Source: Candidatus Accumulibacter sp. ACC003
Lineage (GTDB): Bacteria > Pseudomonadota > Gammaproteobacteria > Burkholderiales > Rhodocyclaceae
NCBI RefSeq assembly: GCF_907163085.1
Contig: NZ_CAJQTX010000007.1
Location: forward strand, 434,001 to 498,000
DNA: 64,000 nt
Direction: 5' to 3'
This document shows positions 7,605 through 19,435 of the stretch, in pieces. Both the position numbers and the translations under genes were made by a program. Under the pieces are notes generated by a model, which made no database searches, was not told the origin of the DNA, and saw only the letters and a list, made by a program, of their open reading frames with translations. Numbering within the stretch: position 1 is the first letter of the stretch; the number at the start of each line of letters is the position of its first letter.

Positions 7605-8447
<843 letters not shown>

Positions 8448-8482
8448 GCGCTGATGCGCGCTGCGAACAGGCGCTATCGACT

Positions 8483-9652
8483 ATGCTGATCGATTTCTTT
8501 CTCCATCTCAAGGCGAACAAGCTGCCGGTGTCGATCAAGGAGTTTCTGGCCTTGCTCGAGGGCTTGCAGAAGCACGTCATCGAACACAGCCTCGACGACT
8601 TCTACCGTCTTTCGCGCGCCATCCTGGTCAAGGACGAGACGCACTTCGACAAGTTTGACCGCGCTTTCGGCGAGTACTTCAAGGGCGTCGAAGCGCTGCC
8701 GGGGATGGACGCGCTGATTCCCGAAGAGTGGTTGCGGCAGGCGGTGAAAAAACATCTCACCGACGCCGAGCGCGCCAAGCTCGAAAAACTCGGCTGGGAC
8801 AAGCTGATGGAAACCTTCAAGCAGCGTCTCGCCGAGCAGAAGGAGCGCCATTCGGGCGGCAGCAAGTGGATCGGCAGCGGCGGCAGCTCGCCCTTCGGCC
8901 ACGGCGGCACGCATCCCGAGGGCATCCGCGTCGGCGGCAAGAGCGAGAATCGCTCGGCGGTCAAGGTCTGGGAGAAGCGCGAGTATCGCAACCTCGACGA
9001 CAGCGTCGAGCTCGGCACGCGCAATATCAAAATCGCCTTGCGCCGGCTGCGCCGCTTTGCCCGCCAGGGGGCGGCCGAGGAGCTCGACCTCGAAGGGACC
9101 ATCGCCGGCACCGCGCGCAATGCCGGCTGGCTCGACCTGCAGCTGCGCCCCGAGCGCCACAACGCCGTCAAGGTGCTGCTTTTTCTCGACATCGGCGGCT
9201 CGATGGATGACCACGTCCGCGTCTGCGAGGAGCTGTTCTCGGCGTGTCACAGCGAGTTCAAGCACCTCGAGTACTACTACTTCCACAACTGCGTCTACGA
9301 ATACCTGTGGCAGGACAACCGCCGCCGTCACAGCGAACGCATCGACACCCACGACGTGCTGCACAAGTACGGCAACGACTACAAGCTGATCTTCGTCGGC
9401 GACGCGGCGATGAGCCCCTACGAGCTGCTGCAGCCCTGGGGCAGCGTCGAGTACAACAACGCCGAGCCCGGCGCCACCTGGTTGCGGCGGCTGACCGGCA
9501 CCTGGCCGCACGCGATCTGGCTCAACCCCGAGTCCGAACACGCCTGGCAGTACCGGCAATCGACTTCGCTGATCCACAACCTGATGGGCGGGCGGATGTT
9601 CCCGCTGACGCTCGACGGGCTGGCGCGCGGGATGCGGCTGCTCAGCAAGTAG
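8483..9652 (+). CDS. VWA domain protein of the CoxE type
   Basis: A 389-residue protein with an N-terminal helical region and a C-terminal von Willebrand A-like domain. The metal-binding MIDAS appears as LFLDIGGSMDDH (about residues 233-244), with Gly in place of the first Ser of DxSxS. It pairs with the adjacent MoxR ATPase, as CoxE/CbbO-type proteins do, and would act as the substrate-binding half of the chaperone. No obvious client enzyme is encoded nearby, and the next two genes are signalling-type ATPase and TPR genes, so the client cannot be named. Confidence 0.88.
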   Translation: MLIDFFLHLKANKLPVSIKEFLALLEGLQKHVIEHSLDDFYRLSRAILVKDETHFDKFDRAFGEYFKGVEALPGMDALIPEEWLRQAVKKHLTDAERAKLEKLGWDKLMETFKQRLAEQKERHSGGSKWIGSGGSSPFGHGGTHPEGIRVGGKSENRSAVKVWEKREYRNLDDSVELGTRNIKIALRRLRRFARQGAAEELDLEGTIAGTARNAGWLDLQLRPERHNAVKVLLFLDIGGSMDDHVRVCEELFSACHSEFKHLEYYYFHNCVYEYLWQDNRRRHSERIDTHDVLHKYGNDYKLIFVGDAAMSPYELLQPWGSVEYNNAEPGATWLRRLTGTWPHAIWLNPESEHAWQYRQSTSLIHNLMGGRMFPLTLDGLARGMRLLSK

Positions 9653-9764
9653 GTGTCGCGGCGCTGGCAACCGCCGCCGCTTGACAGTGCCGGGGACGCT
9701 GCAGATACTCGTCGGCAGCCTTTGCCGTTCCCGGTTTCGTCCACTTTCATTTCTCCCGATCGCC

Positions 9765-11114
9765 ATGACCTATCGTCCGCCCGCCAACATTCTCGAAGTA
9801 CTGCAAAAGATCGAGTACGAAGAGGCGCTGCCGGCTGGCGACCCGCGCTTCGTCGAGACACAGGAAGCGCGTGGCAGCGAGCGAACGTTTTCGCGACTGG
9901 CGCGCAAGTTCGGCTGGGACCCGGTCAGCGACGCCTTTTTCCCGCCGAACGAGAAACATGCCTTGTTCTTCGGCCATATCGGCAGCGGCAAGACCACTGA
10001 ACTGCGGCGCTACGCCGAACGCCTGAACGCTTCGCGGCGCTATTACGTCGTCGAGGTCGACGTGCTGCTGAAGCTCGACCGCAACAACCTGCAGTATTCC
10101 GAAGCCTTGATGGCGATGGCCGAGACGCTGCTCGAGCGCCTTCTCGGCGACGGCTATGCGCTGGACGACGACGCCTTGTGGCCGGTACGCGAGTGGTTCG
10201 AGACCGCCATCACGACACGTTCGACGCAACGCGAAGCGAGCGCCGAGATCAAGGCCGGCGCGCAAGCCGGTGGTGGTCTGCCCGGGCTGGTCAAGCTCTT
10301 CGCCAGCTTCACCGCGGCAGTGAAGACCGGCGCCAGCCAGAAGGACGAATGGCGGCAGCAGATCCGCAATCGGTTCACGACGCTGGCTGCCGCCTTCAGC
10401 CAGCTGATCCGTGCCGCCGAGGCCGAACTGCAAGCGCACGGTCGCGCCGAACGCGTCTTCTTCCTGGTGGACGGCACGGACAAGATGCGTGGCGAGGATA
10501 CCCGGCAGTTCTTCGTTCTCGACGCCGAACAGCTGCTGGCGATCCAGACGCTGGCGATCTACACCGCGCCCTTGCACCTCAAGTTTGGTGGTCTGCTGGG
10601 TGGCAAGCTCGACGCCGACATGGTGCTGCCGATGATCAAGCTGCACGAGCGCGACGGCAGCCGCTGCCAAGCCGGCTGGACGGCGCTGACCCGTCTGCTG
10701 CTGCTACGCGCCGATCGCTGCCTGTTTGCCGCCGACGCCGAAATCGAGCAACTGGCCGAGCACAGCGGAGGTCATCCGCGCGAGCTGCTGCGGTTGCTGC
10801 GCCTGTGCTGCGAGGTCGCCGACGACCTGATCGACGGGGCTGTCGTGCAGCGCGCGATCGCTCAGCTGGCGGCCGATTACCGCTACTTCCTCAGGCCCAG
10901 CGACTACGCGCTGCTGGTGGCCGTCGACGCCAACCCGGCGCAAGGCGGCAACGACGAAGCAGCGCAGGATCTGTTGCACCGTCTGGCCTTGATGCAGTAC
11001 AACGACGGCCGCTGGCGGCGCAGCCATCCCGTGGTACGGACGCTGGAAGGCTACCAGATCGCCGCCGCGGCATTGCCGGCAGCGGCCGTCGAACCCGCCG
11101 TGCCGCCGGGCTGA
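9765..11114 (+). CDS. STAND-like P-loop ATPase
   Basis: A 449-residue protein with Walker A GHIGSGKTT (residues 70-78) and a Walker B-like VFFLVDGTDKM about 170 residues later, followed by helical ARC/winged-helix-like segments (HSGGHPRELLRLLRLCC). This is the pattern of STAND/AAA-type regulatory ATPases, where nucleotide binding switches an assembly. ATG 9765 (MTYRPPANIL) is preferred over an upstream start that adds a low-complexity leader. It sits 21 bases before a TPR gene and 112 bases after the VWA gene. No enzymatic effector domain is visible, so any defence or signalling role is inference. Confidence 0.72.
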   Translation: MTYRPPANILEVLQKIEYEEALPAGDPRFVETQEARGSERTFSRLARKFGWDPVSDAFFPPNEKHALFFGHIGSGKTTELRRYAERLNASRRYYVVEVDVLLKLDRNNLQYSEALMAMAETLLERLLGDGYALDDDALWPVREWFETAITTRSTQREASAEIKAGAQAGGGLPGLVKLFASFTAAVKTGASQKDEWRQQIRNRFTTLAAAFSQLIRAAEAELQAHGRAERVFFLVDGTDKMRGEDTRQFFVLDAEQLLAIQTLAIYTAPLHLKFGGLLGGKLDADMVLPMIKLHERDGSRCQAGWTALTRLLLLRADRCLFAADAEIEQLAEHSGGHPRELLRLLRLCCEVADDLIDGAVVQRAIAQLAADYRYFLRPSDYALLVAVDANPAQGGNDEAAQDLLHRLALMQYNDGRWRRSHPVVRTLEGYQIAAAALPAAAVEPAVPPG

Positions 11115-13808: not shown

Positions 13809-14684
13809 ATGACCTCGAAATCGATGTTGTTGAGCATCAGCCTCGCCGTTGCCGCCGCCCTGGCGTCCGGCGCCGTTTCCGCACGAACCGAGATCCAGAA
13901 CAAGGGCTCGGACACCCTGGTCAATGTCGCCCAGTCGTGGGCCGAGCAGTACGGCAAGATCAACCCCGAAGTGGCTGTTGCCGTATCGGGCGGCGGCTCG
14001 GGTACCGGCATTGCCGCCTTGATCAACGGCACGGTCGATATCGCCAACGCCAGCCGCAAGATGAAGGACAAGGAGATCAAGGAGGCCGAGGCCAAAGGTC
14101 ACCATCCGGTCGAGAACGTCGTCGGTTACGACGCGCTGGCGATCTTCGTAAACAAGAGTTTCCCCCTCAACTCGATCAGCATCCCCGAACTGGCCAAGAT
14201 TTACGGCCGTGACGGCGGTGCGACCAAGTGGAGCGATCTCGGGATCACCATCCCGGGCTGCAAGGACGAGATCGTCGTCGTCAGCCGGCAGAACAATTCG
14301 GGAACCTACGCCTACTTCCAGGAGGCGGTCCTCGGTGAGAAGGGTAAGTTCCGGCAGGGCACCCTGGACATGCACGGCTCCAAGGACGTCGCCGACCTGG
14401 TCGAGAAGACGCCCTGCGCGATCGGCTATAGCGGTCTTGCCTACGCTACCGAGCACCTCAAGACGCTGTGTATCTCGCCCGAGAAGGGCAAGGCCTGCGT
14501 CAAACCGACCGAGGACACGGCCTTTGATGGCACCTACCCGATCGCCCGGCCGCTGATGATGTACACCGATGGCAAGCCGAAGGCCGACGTCAAGAAGTAC
14601 ATGGACTGGATCATGAGCGACGTTGGTCAGTGCATCCTCGCCAAGGAAGGCTACGCGCCGGTCCGCAAGATCAGCTGCAAGTAA
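13809..14684 (+). CDS. pstS: Phosphate ABC transporter substrate-binding protein PstS
   Basis: Periplasmic phosphate-binding protein of 291 residues with a signal peptide (MTSKSMLLSISLAVAAALAS, cleavage near SVSA). Phosphate-binding PstS motifs are visible: IQNKGSDTL near the N terminus, SGGGSGTGIAALINGT, DIANASRKM, and SRQNNSGTYAYFQE in the second lobe. It is a soluble, signal-peptide type rather than a lipoprotein. GGAG precedes ATG 13809 by about 9 bases. It heads an operon with phoU-like, pstC, pstA and two pstB-like genes; a hairpin follows the stop. Confidence 0.94.
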   Translation: MTSKSMLLSISLAVAAALASGAVSARTEIQNKGSDTLVNVAQSWAEQYGKINPEVAVAVSGGGSGTGIAALINGTVDIANASRKMKDKEIKEAEAKGHHPVENVVGYDALAIFVNKSFPLNSISIPELAKIYGRDGGATKWSDLGITIPGCKDEIVVVSRQNNSGTYAYFQEAVLGEKGKFRQGTLDMHGSKDVADLVEKTPCAIGYSGLAYATEHLKTLCISPEKGKACVKPTEDTAFDGTYPIARPLMMYTDGKPKADVKKYMDWIMSDVGQCILAKEGYAPVRKISCK

Positions 14685-16800: not shown

Positions 16801-17691
16801 ATGACAACGGCTAATGCAGCAATGTTTCAGGCGAGCGCCCTGAACAAACGTAACGAGAGCGTCCAGAAGCTCTACCGAATGCTTTTCGGGATGATGACGC
16901 TGATGCTTATCGCGCCGGTTCTCCTGATTCTCGGAACCCTGATTGCCAAGGGTGGCGGCGCCATTTCGTGGGAGTTTCTATTTACCGCGCCAACCGACGG
17001 GATGCGCTCCGGCGGCGTCCTGCCGGCGCTGCTGGGGACGGTCTGGCTGGTGATGGTGGCGCTGATGCTGTCGGTACCGATCGGCGTCTGCGCGGCGATC
17101 TATCTCAGCGAATATGCCGGCGATAACTGGTTCACGCGGACCATCAACCTGGCGATCATCAACCTCGCCGGCGTGCCGTCGATCGTGCACGCCTTGTTCG
17201 GCTTGGGCGCCTTCGTCATCTTCTTCGGCTTCGGGACGAGCATCCTGGCGGCGAGTCTGACCTTGGCGGTGATGACCATGCCAGTGGTCATCGTCGCCAC
17301 CCGCGAGTCGCTGCAGGCGGTGCCGCAAGCGTTTCGCGAAGCCTGCTGGAACATGGGCGCGACGCGCTGGCAGACGATTCGTCGGGTGGTGCTGCCGAAT
17401 GCGATCACCGGAATTCTCACCGGCGTGATTCTCGAGGTCTCGCGTACTGCCGGCGAGACGGCGCCGATCATGTTCACCGGCGCGGTGTTCTTCACGCCCT
17501 TCCTGCCCGAGAGCGTCATGGACCAGACCATGGCCTTGTCGCTGCATCTGTTCGTCGCCGCGACGCAGGTTCCGGGCATTGCTGACGAGGTTCCCTTTGG
17601 TATTGCGCTGGTGCTGATCGGCCTGGTGCTGACCATGAACAGCGCGTCGATTGCTTTCCGGATGTGGCTCAGGGGGAAGAAGAAATGGTAA
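16801..17691 (+). CDS. pstA: Phosphate ABC transporter permease PstA
   Basis: Second membrane permease, 296 residues, with the DGMRSGGVLPALLGTVWLV segment, the NLAGVPSIVHALFGLGAFV motif and the docking loop REACWNMGATRWQTIRRVVLP typical of PstA. It pairs with PstC to form the phosphate path. The 3' end overlaps the next ATPase gene by seven bases, implying coupled translation. Confidence 0.95.
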   Translation: MTTANAAMFQASALNKRNESVQKLYRMLFGMMTLMLIAPVLLILGTLIAKGGGAISWEFLFTAPTDGMRSGGVLPALLGTVWLVMVALMLSVPIGVCAAIYLSEYAGDNWFTRTINLAIINLAGVPSIVHALFGLGAFVIFFGFGTSILAASLTLAVMTMPVVIVATRESLQAVPQAFREACWNMGATRWQTIRRVVLPNAITGILTGVILEVSRTAGETAPIMFTGAVFFTPFLPESVMDQTMALSLHLFVAATQVPGIADEVPFGIALVLIGLVLTMNSASIAFRMWLRGKKKW

Positions 17692-18506
17692 GCCAAAGCG
17701 CTCTCGAGCGGCCGATGCACGGTCGGCAAAGCAAGGGCGGAGCCGCCGCATCGCCGATCAAGCTTGCGGTCAAGGACCTGCGCATCAGTTACGGCAAGGC
17801 GGTGGCGCTGCAGGGCGTCAACCTGGAGATTCACGAGCACGAGATCTTCGGCATCATTGGCCCGGCCAACGCCGGCAAGACCTCGTTCCTCAAGGCACTC
17901 AACCGCATGGACGTGTTCAACACCGGCATGCGCGTGGACGGCGAGATCCGCTTCAACGGCCTCGATACGCGCCACCTGAAGAACGTCTATGCGCTGCGCA
18001 GCCGCATCGGTGTCGTCTTCCCGCTGCCGGTCGGTCTGCCGATGACTGTGTACGACAACGTCGCGCTGTCGCCACGCTGGCGGGGGATTACCAACAAGGC
18101 CGAACTCGACGTCATCGTGCAGCGTTGTCTGACGCGTGCCGCGCTCTGGGACGAGGTCAAGGATCGCCTCGGCGCGCTCGGCAGCCTGCTCTCCGGCGGC
18201 CAACAGCAGCGGCTGACGATCGCCAGGGCGCTGTCGCAGGAGCCCGACCTGCTGATGCTCGACGAGTTTTCGATCGCCGTCGACCCGGTGACGACGATGC
18301 GTATCGAGGATGTGCTCAAGGAACTTCGCCAGGAGGTGACGATCATCCTGGTCACCAACCTGGTGCAACAGGCGCGGCGTCTGGCCGACCGCACCGCCTT
18401 CTTCCTGAATGGCGAGTGCGTCGAGATCGGCGTCACCGAGGATCTGTTCACCGGCGAGGTCAAGGATAAGCGTACCCGCGACTACGTCGAGGGACGATTC
18501 GGTTGA
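17685..18506 (+). CDS. pstB: PstB-like ATPase 1, with intact signature but degenerate own ATP site
   Basis: A 273-residue ABC ATPase related to PstB along its length and ending DYVEGRFG like that family. It has Walker A GPANAGKT (59-66), Walker B LLMLDE (189-194) and a perfect signature LSGGQQQR (169-176). The Q-loop glutamine is replaced (VVFPLP, residue 113), the D-loop reads SIAVDP instead of SALDP, and the switch histidine is Asn225 (LVTNLV instead of IVTHNM). Its own ATP site should therefore hydrolyse poorly, while its signature can serve the partner. ATG 17685 lies inside the pstA end; an in-frame ATG at 17664 would add seven residues. Confidence 0.88.
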   Translation: MVSQSALERPMHGRQSKGGAAASPIKLAVKDLRISYGKAVALQGVNLEIHEHEIFGIIGPANAGKTSFLKALNRMDVFNTGMRVDGEIRFNGLDTRHLKNVYALRSRIGVVFPLPVGLPMTVYDNVALSPRWRGITNKAELDVIVQRCLTRAALWDEVKDRLGALGSLLSGGQQQRLTIARALSQEPDLLMLDEFSIAVDPVTTMRIEDVLKELRQEVTIILVTNLVQQARRLADRTAFFLNGECVEIGVTEDLFTGEVKDKRTRDYVEGRFG

Positions 18507-18533
18507 GTCTTGAGGCCGGGCCGGGCCGGGCTG

Positions 18534-18553
18534 CCGCTGCCGTTTGGCAGCGG
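18534..18553 (+). terminator. Hairpin between the two pstB-like genes
   Basis: A perfect 8-bp stem CCGCTGCC (18534-18541) with GGCAGCGG (18546-18553) around a GTTT loop lies in the 122-base gap between the ATPase genes. No T-tract follows, so it may tune the ratio of the two ATPases by partial termination or by affecting mRNA stability. Confidence 0.55.
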
Positions 18554-18628
18554 AGCGCCCGGTTTCGCGCCAGCCAGCTGCCCCGCTTGCCACTGTATTC
18601 ACCGAATACCAATGAAGGACACCATTAG

Positions 18629-19435
18629 ATGAGCGCCGCCCCAGCCGCAGCCCTGCTGCAGCCATCGCCCGAATACGCGATCGACACCAAGAAACTCAAC
18701 CTCTGGTACGGGACCTTTCAGGCCCTGTACGACGTAGACCTGCGCATCCGCCAGGGCATGATCACCTCGATGATTGGTCCTTCGGGATGCGGCAAGAGTA
18801 CTTACCTGCGCAGCGTCAACCGCATCAACGAGCGTCTCGGCTACGTGCGCATCGAGGGCAGTATCGACGTCATGGGCCAGAACATCTACGACCCAGGCGT
18901 CGAGCTGATCCAGGTGCGCAAGCAGGTGGGAATGGTCTTCCAGCGCCCCAATCCGCTGCCGATCTCGATTCGCGACAACATCCTTTTCAGCCACCGCCTG
19001 CACGCGAAGGGTGGTGGCGACGTCCATCAGGGTACGCCGGACGAAATCGTCGAGGAATCCTTGCGCACCGTGTTGCTGTGGGACAAGGTCAAGGACCGCC
19101 TCAAGCGCAAGGCCACCGAGCTGTCGCTCGAAGAGCAGCAGAAGCTGTGCATCGCGCGGCTGCTGCCGGTCAAGCCCAAGCTGCTGCTGATGGACGAGCC
19201 GTGTTCGGCGCTCGACCCGAAGGGCACCGAGGCGGTCGAGGAACTGCTCTGGGAGCTGCGCGGCCAGTACACGATTCTCATCGTCACGCACAATATGGCG
19301 CAGGCGCGTCGCGCCAGCGAGGAATGCATCTTCATGCTGATGGGCAAGGTCGTCGAGCACGCGCCGACCGAGGAGATGTTCGTCACCCCGACGCACCAGG
19401 AAACAGCCGACTATATCGAAGGCCGCTTCGGCTGA
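18629..19435 (+). CDS. pstB: PstB-like ATPase 2, with intact ATP site but degenerate signature
   Basis: A 268-residue ABC ATPase of the PstB family. Walker A GPSGCGKST (50-58), Q-loop VFQRPNP (Gln105), Walker B LLLMDE (185-190), D-loop SALDP and switch His221 (IVTHNM) are all canonical. The signature LSGGQQQR is replaced by LSLEEQQK (165-172). This is the reverse of the preceding ATPase, so the two should form a heterodimer with one working site: this protein's nucleotide-binding face and the other's signature. It ends DYIEGRFG. It is separated from PstB-like 1 by 122 bases containing a hairpin. Confidence 0.88.
   Translation: MSAAPAAALLQPSPEYAIDTKKLNLWYGTFQALYDVDLRIRQGMITSMIGPSGCGKSTYLRSVNRINERLGYVRIEGSIDVMGQNIYDPGVELIQVRKQVGMVFQRPNPLPISIRDNILFSHRLHAKGGGDVHQGTPDEIVEESLRTVLLWDKVKDRLKRKATELSLEEQQKLCIARLLPVKPKLLLMDEPCSALDPKGTEAVEELLWELRGQYTILIVTHNMAQARRASEECIFMLMGKVVEHAPTEEMFVTPTHQETADYIEGRFG

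Follow-up and report, generated by a model that had tools for sequence, protein, structure and literature searches.

Two adjacent PstB-type ATPases with complementary motif losses suggest an asymmetric Pst phosphate importer in Candidatus Accumulibacter and in several other phyla

The locus analyzed here raises the question of whether two adjacent ATPase genes of a pst operon, each lacking motifs that the other retains, encode the two halves of one asymmetric phosphate importer. It lies in a 64,000-nucleotide stretch of the genome of Candidatus Accumulibacter sp. ACC003 (assembly GCF_907163085.1, contig NZ_CAJQTX010000007.1, positions 434,001 to 498,000), referred to here as the window, and we name the two genes pstB1 and pstB2. 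Degenerate adenosine triphosphate (ATP) sites have been studied mainly in exporters, the asymmetric members of which have nucleotide-binding domains (NBDs) fused to their membrane domains. In an ATP-binding cassette (ABC) dimer, one chain supplies the Walker A and B motifs, the Q-loop, and the H-loop of each ATP site, and its partner supplies the signature (PMC7756269; this and the other papers are cited here from excerpts of their text). A reading made from the window's sequence alone had proposed that PstB1 and PstB2 form a heterodimer in which one ATP site is complete and the other degenerate. Our sequence comparisons, which cover complementary losses, fixation, and co-occurrence, support this proposal, and we consider it very likely that the two proteins form an obligate heterodimer of a Pst-type phosphate importer with such a pair of sites.

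The two genes and the residues on which the question depends are the following:

17685..18506, + strand: pstB1-type ATPase subunit, signature intact, with a degenerate cis half that lacks the Q-loop Gln and the switch His; from motifs, profiles, and AlphaFold2 model
18021..18023, + strand: PstB1 Pro113, replacing the Q-loop Gln (PLPVGLP); from sequence
18189..18203, + strand: PstB1 LSGGQ signature, intact; from sequence
18261..18287, + strand: PstB1 end of Walker B together with the D-loop (DEFSIAVDP), altered but with Asp and Glu kept; from sequence
18357..18359, + strand: PstB1 Asn225, replacing the switch His; from sequence
18629..19435, + strand: pstB2-type ATPase subunit, signature lost and cis half intact; from motifs, profiles, and AlphaFold2 model
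18941..18943, + strand: PstB2 Q-loop Gln105, kept; from sequence
19121..19135, + strand: PstB2 LSLEE, replacing LSGGQ; from sequence
19289..19291, + strand: PstB2 switch His221, kept; from sequence

PstB1 has the motifs GPANAGKTS, VVFPLPVGLP, LSGGQQQR, LDEFSIAVDP, and VTNLVQQA, and it keeps the Walker A Lys as well as the Walker B Asp and the catalytic Glu. The corresponding motifs of PstB2 are GPSGCGKST, VFQRPNPLP, LSLEEQQK (against LSGGQQQR), MDEPCSALDP, and VTHNMAQA. The residues that the sequence-only reading had named were found in place in both proteins: in PstB1 the kept LSGGQ and the replaced Q-loop Gln and switch His, and in PstB2 the kept Walker A and B, Gln105, and His221 together with LSLEE for LSGGQ. 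Its further claim that PstB1 had lost the normal D-loop stands in part, given that the loop is altered from SALD to IAVD, but "lost" is an overstatement because the Asp is kept here and in 94/94 readable sequences. Neither protein carries all catalytic motifs in one chain, as a TIGR00972-type PstB does, and as a homodimer neither would possess a complete site, because PstB1 lacks Gln and His and PstB2 lacks the signature. The losses are complementary, and when the two chains are combined they would leave one complete composite site.

Co-occurrence of the two variants in other genomes had been proposed as a check, and it bears the prediction out: the pair is present in 25 of 28 loci selected on PstB1 (among the matches listed) and in 82 of 83 selected on PstB2, and the rest are contig-end cases. 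Within the genus, a PstB2-type gene was identified in 20 of 28 genomes, with PstB1 adjoining it in 19 of these (G016 holds only the end of PstB1, at a contig end), while the remaining genome, G027, has PstB2 pieces at contig edges; in G009 the PstB2 beside PstB1 is split over two frames. The motif letters are nearly constant within the genus. The exceptions to co-occurrence there are two extra, broken PstB2-type copies, in G005 (L035) and G007 (L036), which have no PstB1-type gene within the stretch fetched. A search of 297 genomes of the family with PstB1 (E 1e-66) matched 18 genomes: 8 that belong to the genus, at E <=2e-142, and 10 that do not, at E >=2e-74; the PstB1 type was confined to genus members, and the ten outside matches have ordinary motifs.

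Beyond the genus, a one-genome-per-species scan with PstB1 returned at least 80 loci, and the counts derived from it are lower bounds that hold among the matches listed. At least 28 of these loci (L056-L082 and L118) are of the PstB1 type, and the 52 others are ordinary PstB. According to record titles and taxonomy labels, the 28 PstB1-type loci represent about nine phyla (Pseudomonadota, Nitrospirota, Planctomycetota, Rhodothermota, Acidobacteriota, Verrucomicrobiota, Poribacteria, Myxococcota, and Bdellovibrionota) and include two records without a clear phylum. The named records are metagenome-assembled, so individual ones may have been binned wrongly; survey loci on contigs of 3-7 Mb include L165, L167, L169, L182, and L216 and, in the genus, L020 and L024. 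The gene order is mostly common to the 28 loci, with phoU absent or relocated in some of them. The three loci in which PstB2 does not follow PstB1 (L071, L082, and L118) have contigs that end in or at PstB1, and PstB2 is present in 25/25 of the assessable loci.

Six surveys with the PstB2 profile (E 1e-105) covered 1421 genomes, of which 84 gave a total of 85 matches: 21/294 in the phylum of L061, 7/240 in that of L072, 31/247 in that of L074, 5/274 in the window's class, 14/178 in the phylum of L078, and 6/188 in that of L067. We read 83 of these loci, leaving out G1004 and the second match of G1099, and ten of the 83 are re-finds of the window or of scan loci. Since these surveys were selected on PstB2 alone, they provide a fair test of co-occurrence above that score. 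A PstB1-type neighbour was recognized by profile in 81 loci and, as a C-terminal part that runs off the contig, in L204; in the remaining locus, L206, the contig ends at PstB2. In the reverse direction, a PstB1-profile search of 188 genomes of the L060 phylum gave ten matches: one is the L060 genome itself (contig-cut), and the other nine are ordinary PstB genes in which every motif is present. Plasmids yielded no PstB1 match at E 1e-60.

Special attention was given to whether the degenerate residues vary at random among homologues, which the sequence-only reading had named as grounds for abandoning it; they do not, and the substituted letters themselves are fixed across phyla. Our motif table includes distinct aligned sequences from the window, the genus, the one-genome-per-species scan, and the first four surveys, with pieces of cut or broken copies taken in. 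Among readable sequences, the PstB1 type has the Q-loop Pro in 95/95, the switch Asn in 94/94, the signature glycines in 95/95, and the catalytic Glu in 94/94, and the PstB2 type has lost the signature glycines in 93/93 and keeps Gln in 91/91 and His in 92/93. The last two surveys, tallied separately, contribute 18 loci with a whole partner, all of which agree with the table. A second subtype, found in seven loci (L156, L163, L191-L193, L217, and L218), presents the same complementarity with other letters: its type 1 protein has Ala for Gln and Asn for His and keeps LSGGQ, and its type 2 protein has the signature L[SP]L[ED]QQQR and keeps Gln and His. As controls we used genes with at least 300 bits to the ordinary PstB profile in the 52 non-pair loci of the scan (among the matches listed); Gln, signature glycines, and His are all kept in 58/58 of them, including six loci with two ordinary PstB genes, and the further family members outside the genus have ordinary motifs in 10/10 cases. 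In the ordinary class of the motif table 61/62 sequences keep the motifs, the exception being a third ATPase in L183. The fixation of the substituted letters across phyla, together with the controls, places the residue pattern beyond chance.

In phylogenetic trees, PstB1 forms one clade (100/100) and PstB2 another (99/99), and both hold when the motif columns are removed. The PstB2 type and its second-subtype counterpart are one clade with and without the motif columns (91/82 and 99/94), and PstB1 and its counterpart are one clade with them (100/99). The two trees divide the same rows similarly, as judged by eye.

It is important to consider five points that weigh against the heterodimer. First, L188 is the sole PstB2-type sequence with a Tyr in place of the switch His. 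Second, with the motif columns removed, PstB1 and the second subtype fall into two groups (in an analysis whose bootstrap had not settled), so type 1 may have had one origin or two. Third, among columns conserved in ordinary PstB, the common residue is lost at 13 cis columns (Walker A, Q-loop, Walker B/D-loop, and H-loop) and no signature column in PstB1, and at 2 and 3, respectively, in PstB2, a split with a Fisher P of 0.012 that rises to 0.099 when two D-loop columns are counted on the signature side. Fourth, conserved substitutions show no significant enrichment in the motif windows overall (P 0.08 for PstB1 and 0.34 for PstB2). Fifth, co-inheritance in one operon would be expected also if the two proteins had separate jobs. 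The case rests on fixation and co-occurrence and not on the Fisher or enrichment tests.

The single-chain AlphaFold2 models of both proteins are complete NBDs. The PstB1 model has a predicted local distance difference test (pLDDT) score of 85.2, with Escherichia coli PstB (9k3x) as its best solved match, and the PstB2 model has a pLDDT of 87.4, with E. coli PstB 9k3s and then 9k3x as its best matches. Each of these E. coli PstSCAB entries contains two PstB chains of one sequence; the window system has the same operon genes and folds as PstSCAB but two different subunits with complementary losses in place of two identical ATPase chains. In the proposed mechanism, PstB1 and PstB2 would dock beneath PstC and PstA as an obligate pair. 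The Walker A, Q-loop, Walker B, and His of PstB2 would face the LSGGQ of PstB1 in a complete site predicted to hydrolyse ATP, and the Walker A and B of PstB1, with neither Gln nor His, would face the LSLEE of PstB2 in the degenerate site. The latter is predicted to bind ATP through the retained Lys, Asp, and Glu, to hydrolyse it poorly or not at all, and to serve as a clamp or hinge. As the analogy of TAP and TM287/288 suggests, this site may hold the NBDs together and help direct the cycle (PMC7756269). The coupling helices of PstC and PstA are more conserved in the asymmetric operons (the 28 loci and the window) than in 40 ordinary loci, among the matches listed; this conservation gives no assignment of either ATPase to PstC or PstA.

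The likeness to asymmetric exporters such as TAP, drawn in the sequence-only reading, was sustained for the logic of the sites, with some differences in the residues. TAP (ABCB2/B3), TM287/288, and TmrAB have one consensus and one degenerate site per dimer, as predicted here, and in such exporters the Walker B Glu and the H-loop are often changed (PMC7756269). The window pair, in contrast, is of the importer type, loses the Q-loop Gln, and consists of free NBD subunits beside PstC and PstA, not of fused membrane and nucleotide-binding domains of the TAP type; because PstB1 keeps the catalytic Glu, which is changed in ABCB2/B3 according to the same excerpt, its degenerate site would be built somewhat differently. 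The NBD2 signature of yeast Pdr5, LNVEQ, resembles the L[SQ]LE[EQ]Q of the PstB2 type, but Pdr5 is a eukaryotic exporter in which the Walker A Lys and Walker B Glu are also lost (PMC7756269). An asymmetric importer has precedent in Bacillus RbsA and NupO, bacterial importers with one predicted degenerate site, which differ in that their NBDs are fused in one chain, the second NBD has lost its Walker A Lys, and they are type II importers (PMC11466899). Searches aimed at a degenerate PstB returned no paper from the open-licence PubMed Central literature.

The substrate of the predicted heterodimer has to be considered in the light of the remaining genes of the operon, which has the order pstS-phoU-pstC-pstA-pstB1-pstB2:

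13809..14684, + strand: pstS, phosphate-binding protein; TIGR02136 232.8 bits (cut-off 206.6) and PF12849
14774..15859, + strand: phoU with a C-terminal degenerate low-molecular-weight phosphatase (LMWPc/ArsC-like) domain; PF01895 and PF01451
15861..16796, + strand: pstC, permease; TIGR02138 276.5 bits (cut-off 196.45)
16801..17691, + strand: pstA, permease; TIGR00974 259.9 bits (cut-off 193.45)

The start of pstB1, an ATG at 17685, overlaps the end of pstA by 7 nucleotides, and its stop ends at 18506. The adjacent PhoU exceeds the cut-off of PF01895 and is slightly under that of TIGR02135 (124.5 against 130.25). Its C-terminal part matches PF01451 at E 0.001, under the cut-off, and lacks the catalytic Cys; PF01451 is over the cut-off in L061, L074, and L078 (3/5 relatives scanned), and the Cys is replaced in 20/21 aligned PhoU-fused domains, L078 being the one that keeps it. 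Such a second, non-catalytic part of PhoU could serve as a sensor, either of phosphate or of the transporter's state. The best-surviving alternative, which we nevertheless consider improbable, is an asymmetric heterodimer whose substrate is another oxyanion or whose complex is mainly a sensor. It would account for a whole operon diverged from ordinary Pst, for the fusion of PhoU to a phosphatase/ArsC-like domain, and for two ATPases that fall short of the PstB equivalog cut-off of TIGR00972 (274.6 bits for PstB1 and 318.3 for PstB2 against 343.2), although this is the best family for both. However, PstS, PstC, and PstA each exceed their phosphate-specific NCBI cut-offs, and in several genomes no Pst ATPase other than the pair was found, which makes phosphate the more plausible substrate.

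A slightly less probable alternative is a division of labour without a heterodimer, in which one subunit would drive transport and the other, as a homodimer, would have an accessory or regulatory part, perhaps by way of signals through PhoU, which lies in the same operon and has an added domain. The precedent is the tandem pstB1-pstB2 of Enterococcus faecalis (Firmicutes), likewise two adjacent diverged pstB genes in a pst operon, which are described as having non-overlapping functions, with PstB2 required and PstB1 accessory (PMC12096839). In that excerpt the Firmicutes-type tandem has no degenerate site and both genes keep all motifs, unlike the window pair, in which neither protein alone could form a complete ATP site; moreover, separate jobs would not require complementary losses. 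We therefore favour the heterodimer over independent homodimers.

The genes also have to be in use, and two observations bear on this. First, the within-genus ratio of nonsynonymous to synonymous substitution rates (dN/dS), computed for each gene from 18 sequences (153 pairs), has a median of 0.106 in PstB1 and of 0.074 in PstB2, low values by which neither gene looks decaying. Second, the pair is the only PstB found in 9 of the 16 genomes behind named loci (genomes of which the completeness is not given; among the matches listed) and in four Accumulibacter genomes (G008, G010, G013, and G015) with no PstB over the TIGR00972 cut-off, one of which, G013, is given as 100% complete. Since no other PstB was found in those genomes, PstB1-PstB2 is probably, on this sequence evidence, the working Pst ATPase there. 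Decay of a duplicated ordinary PstB, in one of the genes or in both, with an operon that is dead or rescued by a second pst locus, might be suggested by the ordinary PstB with all motifs on a separate contig (C10) of the 5.39 Mb host genome, by the broken extra copies L035 and L036, and by the split PstB2 of G009, but as a general explanation it is contradicted by the low dN/dS, the letters fixed across phyla, and the genomes with the pair alone, and we regard it as extremely improbable.

If the heterodimer is correct, its free, separately encoded complementary subunits, sometimes with an ordinary PstB in the same genome, would offer a natural matched pair with which the effect of a degenerate site on coupling and ATP cost could be tested. 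It would also mean that the annotation "pstB" can mask a distinct transporter type in the polyphosphate-accumulating Accumulibacter, whose clades have been reported to have two opposite Pst expression patterns (PMC9723799, excerpt), and in several little-cultured phyla. A more far-reaching idea, which we put forward tentatively and hold to be rather unlikely, is that this ancient and widespread Pst branch is a one-stroke machine that would spend one ATP per imported phosphate and retain the second ATP as a persistent clamp, the dead-phosphatase PhoU reading the asymmetric state; phosphate import would then be cheaper or less leaky, which might suit polyphosphate accumulators.

Some further observations concern the surroundings of the pair. 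A Pho box was sought upstream of pstS with a consensus and three mismatches allowed; this pattern occurred 8 times in the window, where 10.3 occurrences were expected, and never near pstS. Ten neighbouring open reading frames from eight other loci included two histidine kinases (L080 and L081) and no constant partner. Both the pair and any PstB over the TIGR00972 cut-off are missing from G025, an Accumulibacter-group genome listed as 100% complete. In the Acidobacteria genome G327, a third PstB-like ATPase after PstB2 (L183 600-1484, the same DNA as L080 7402-8286) has its Q-loop Gln, signature, and switch His all changed. In the Poribacteria record L077, the stretch at 7609-9932 that follows the asymmetric operon holds one more permease as well as a third PstB-like gene and a PhoU of short length.

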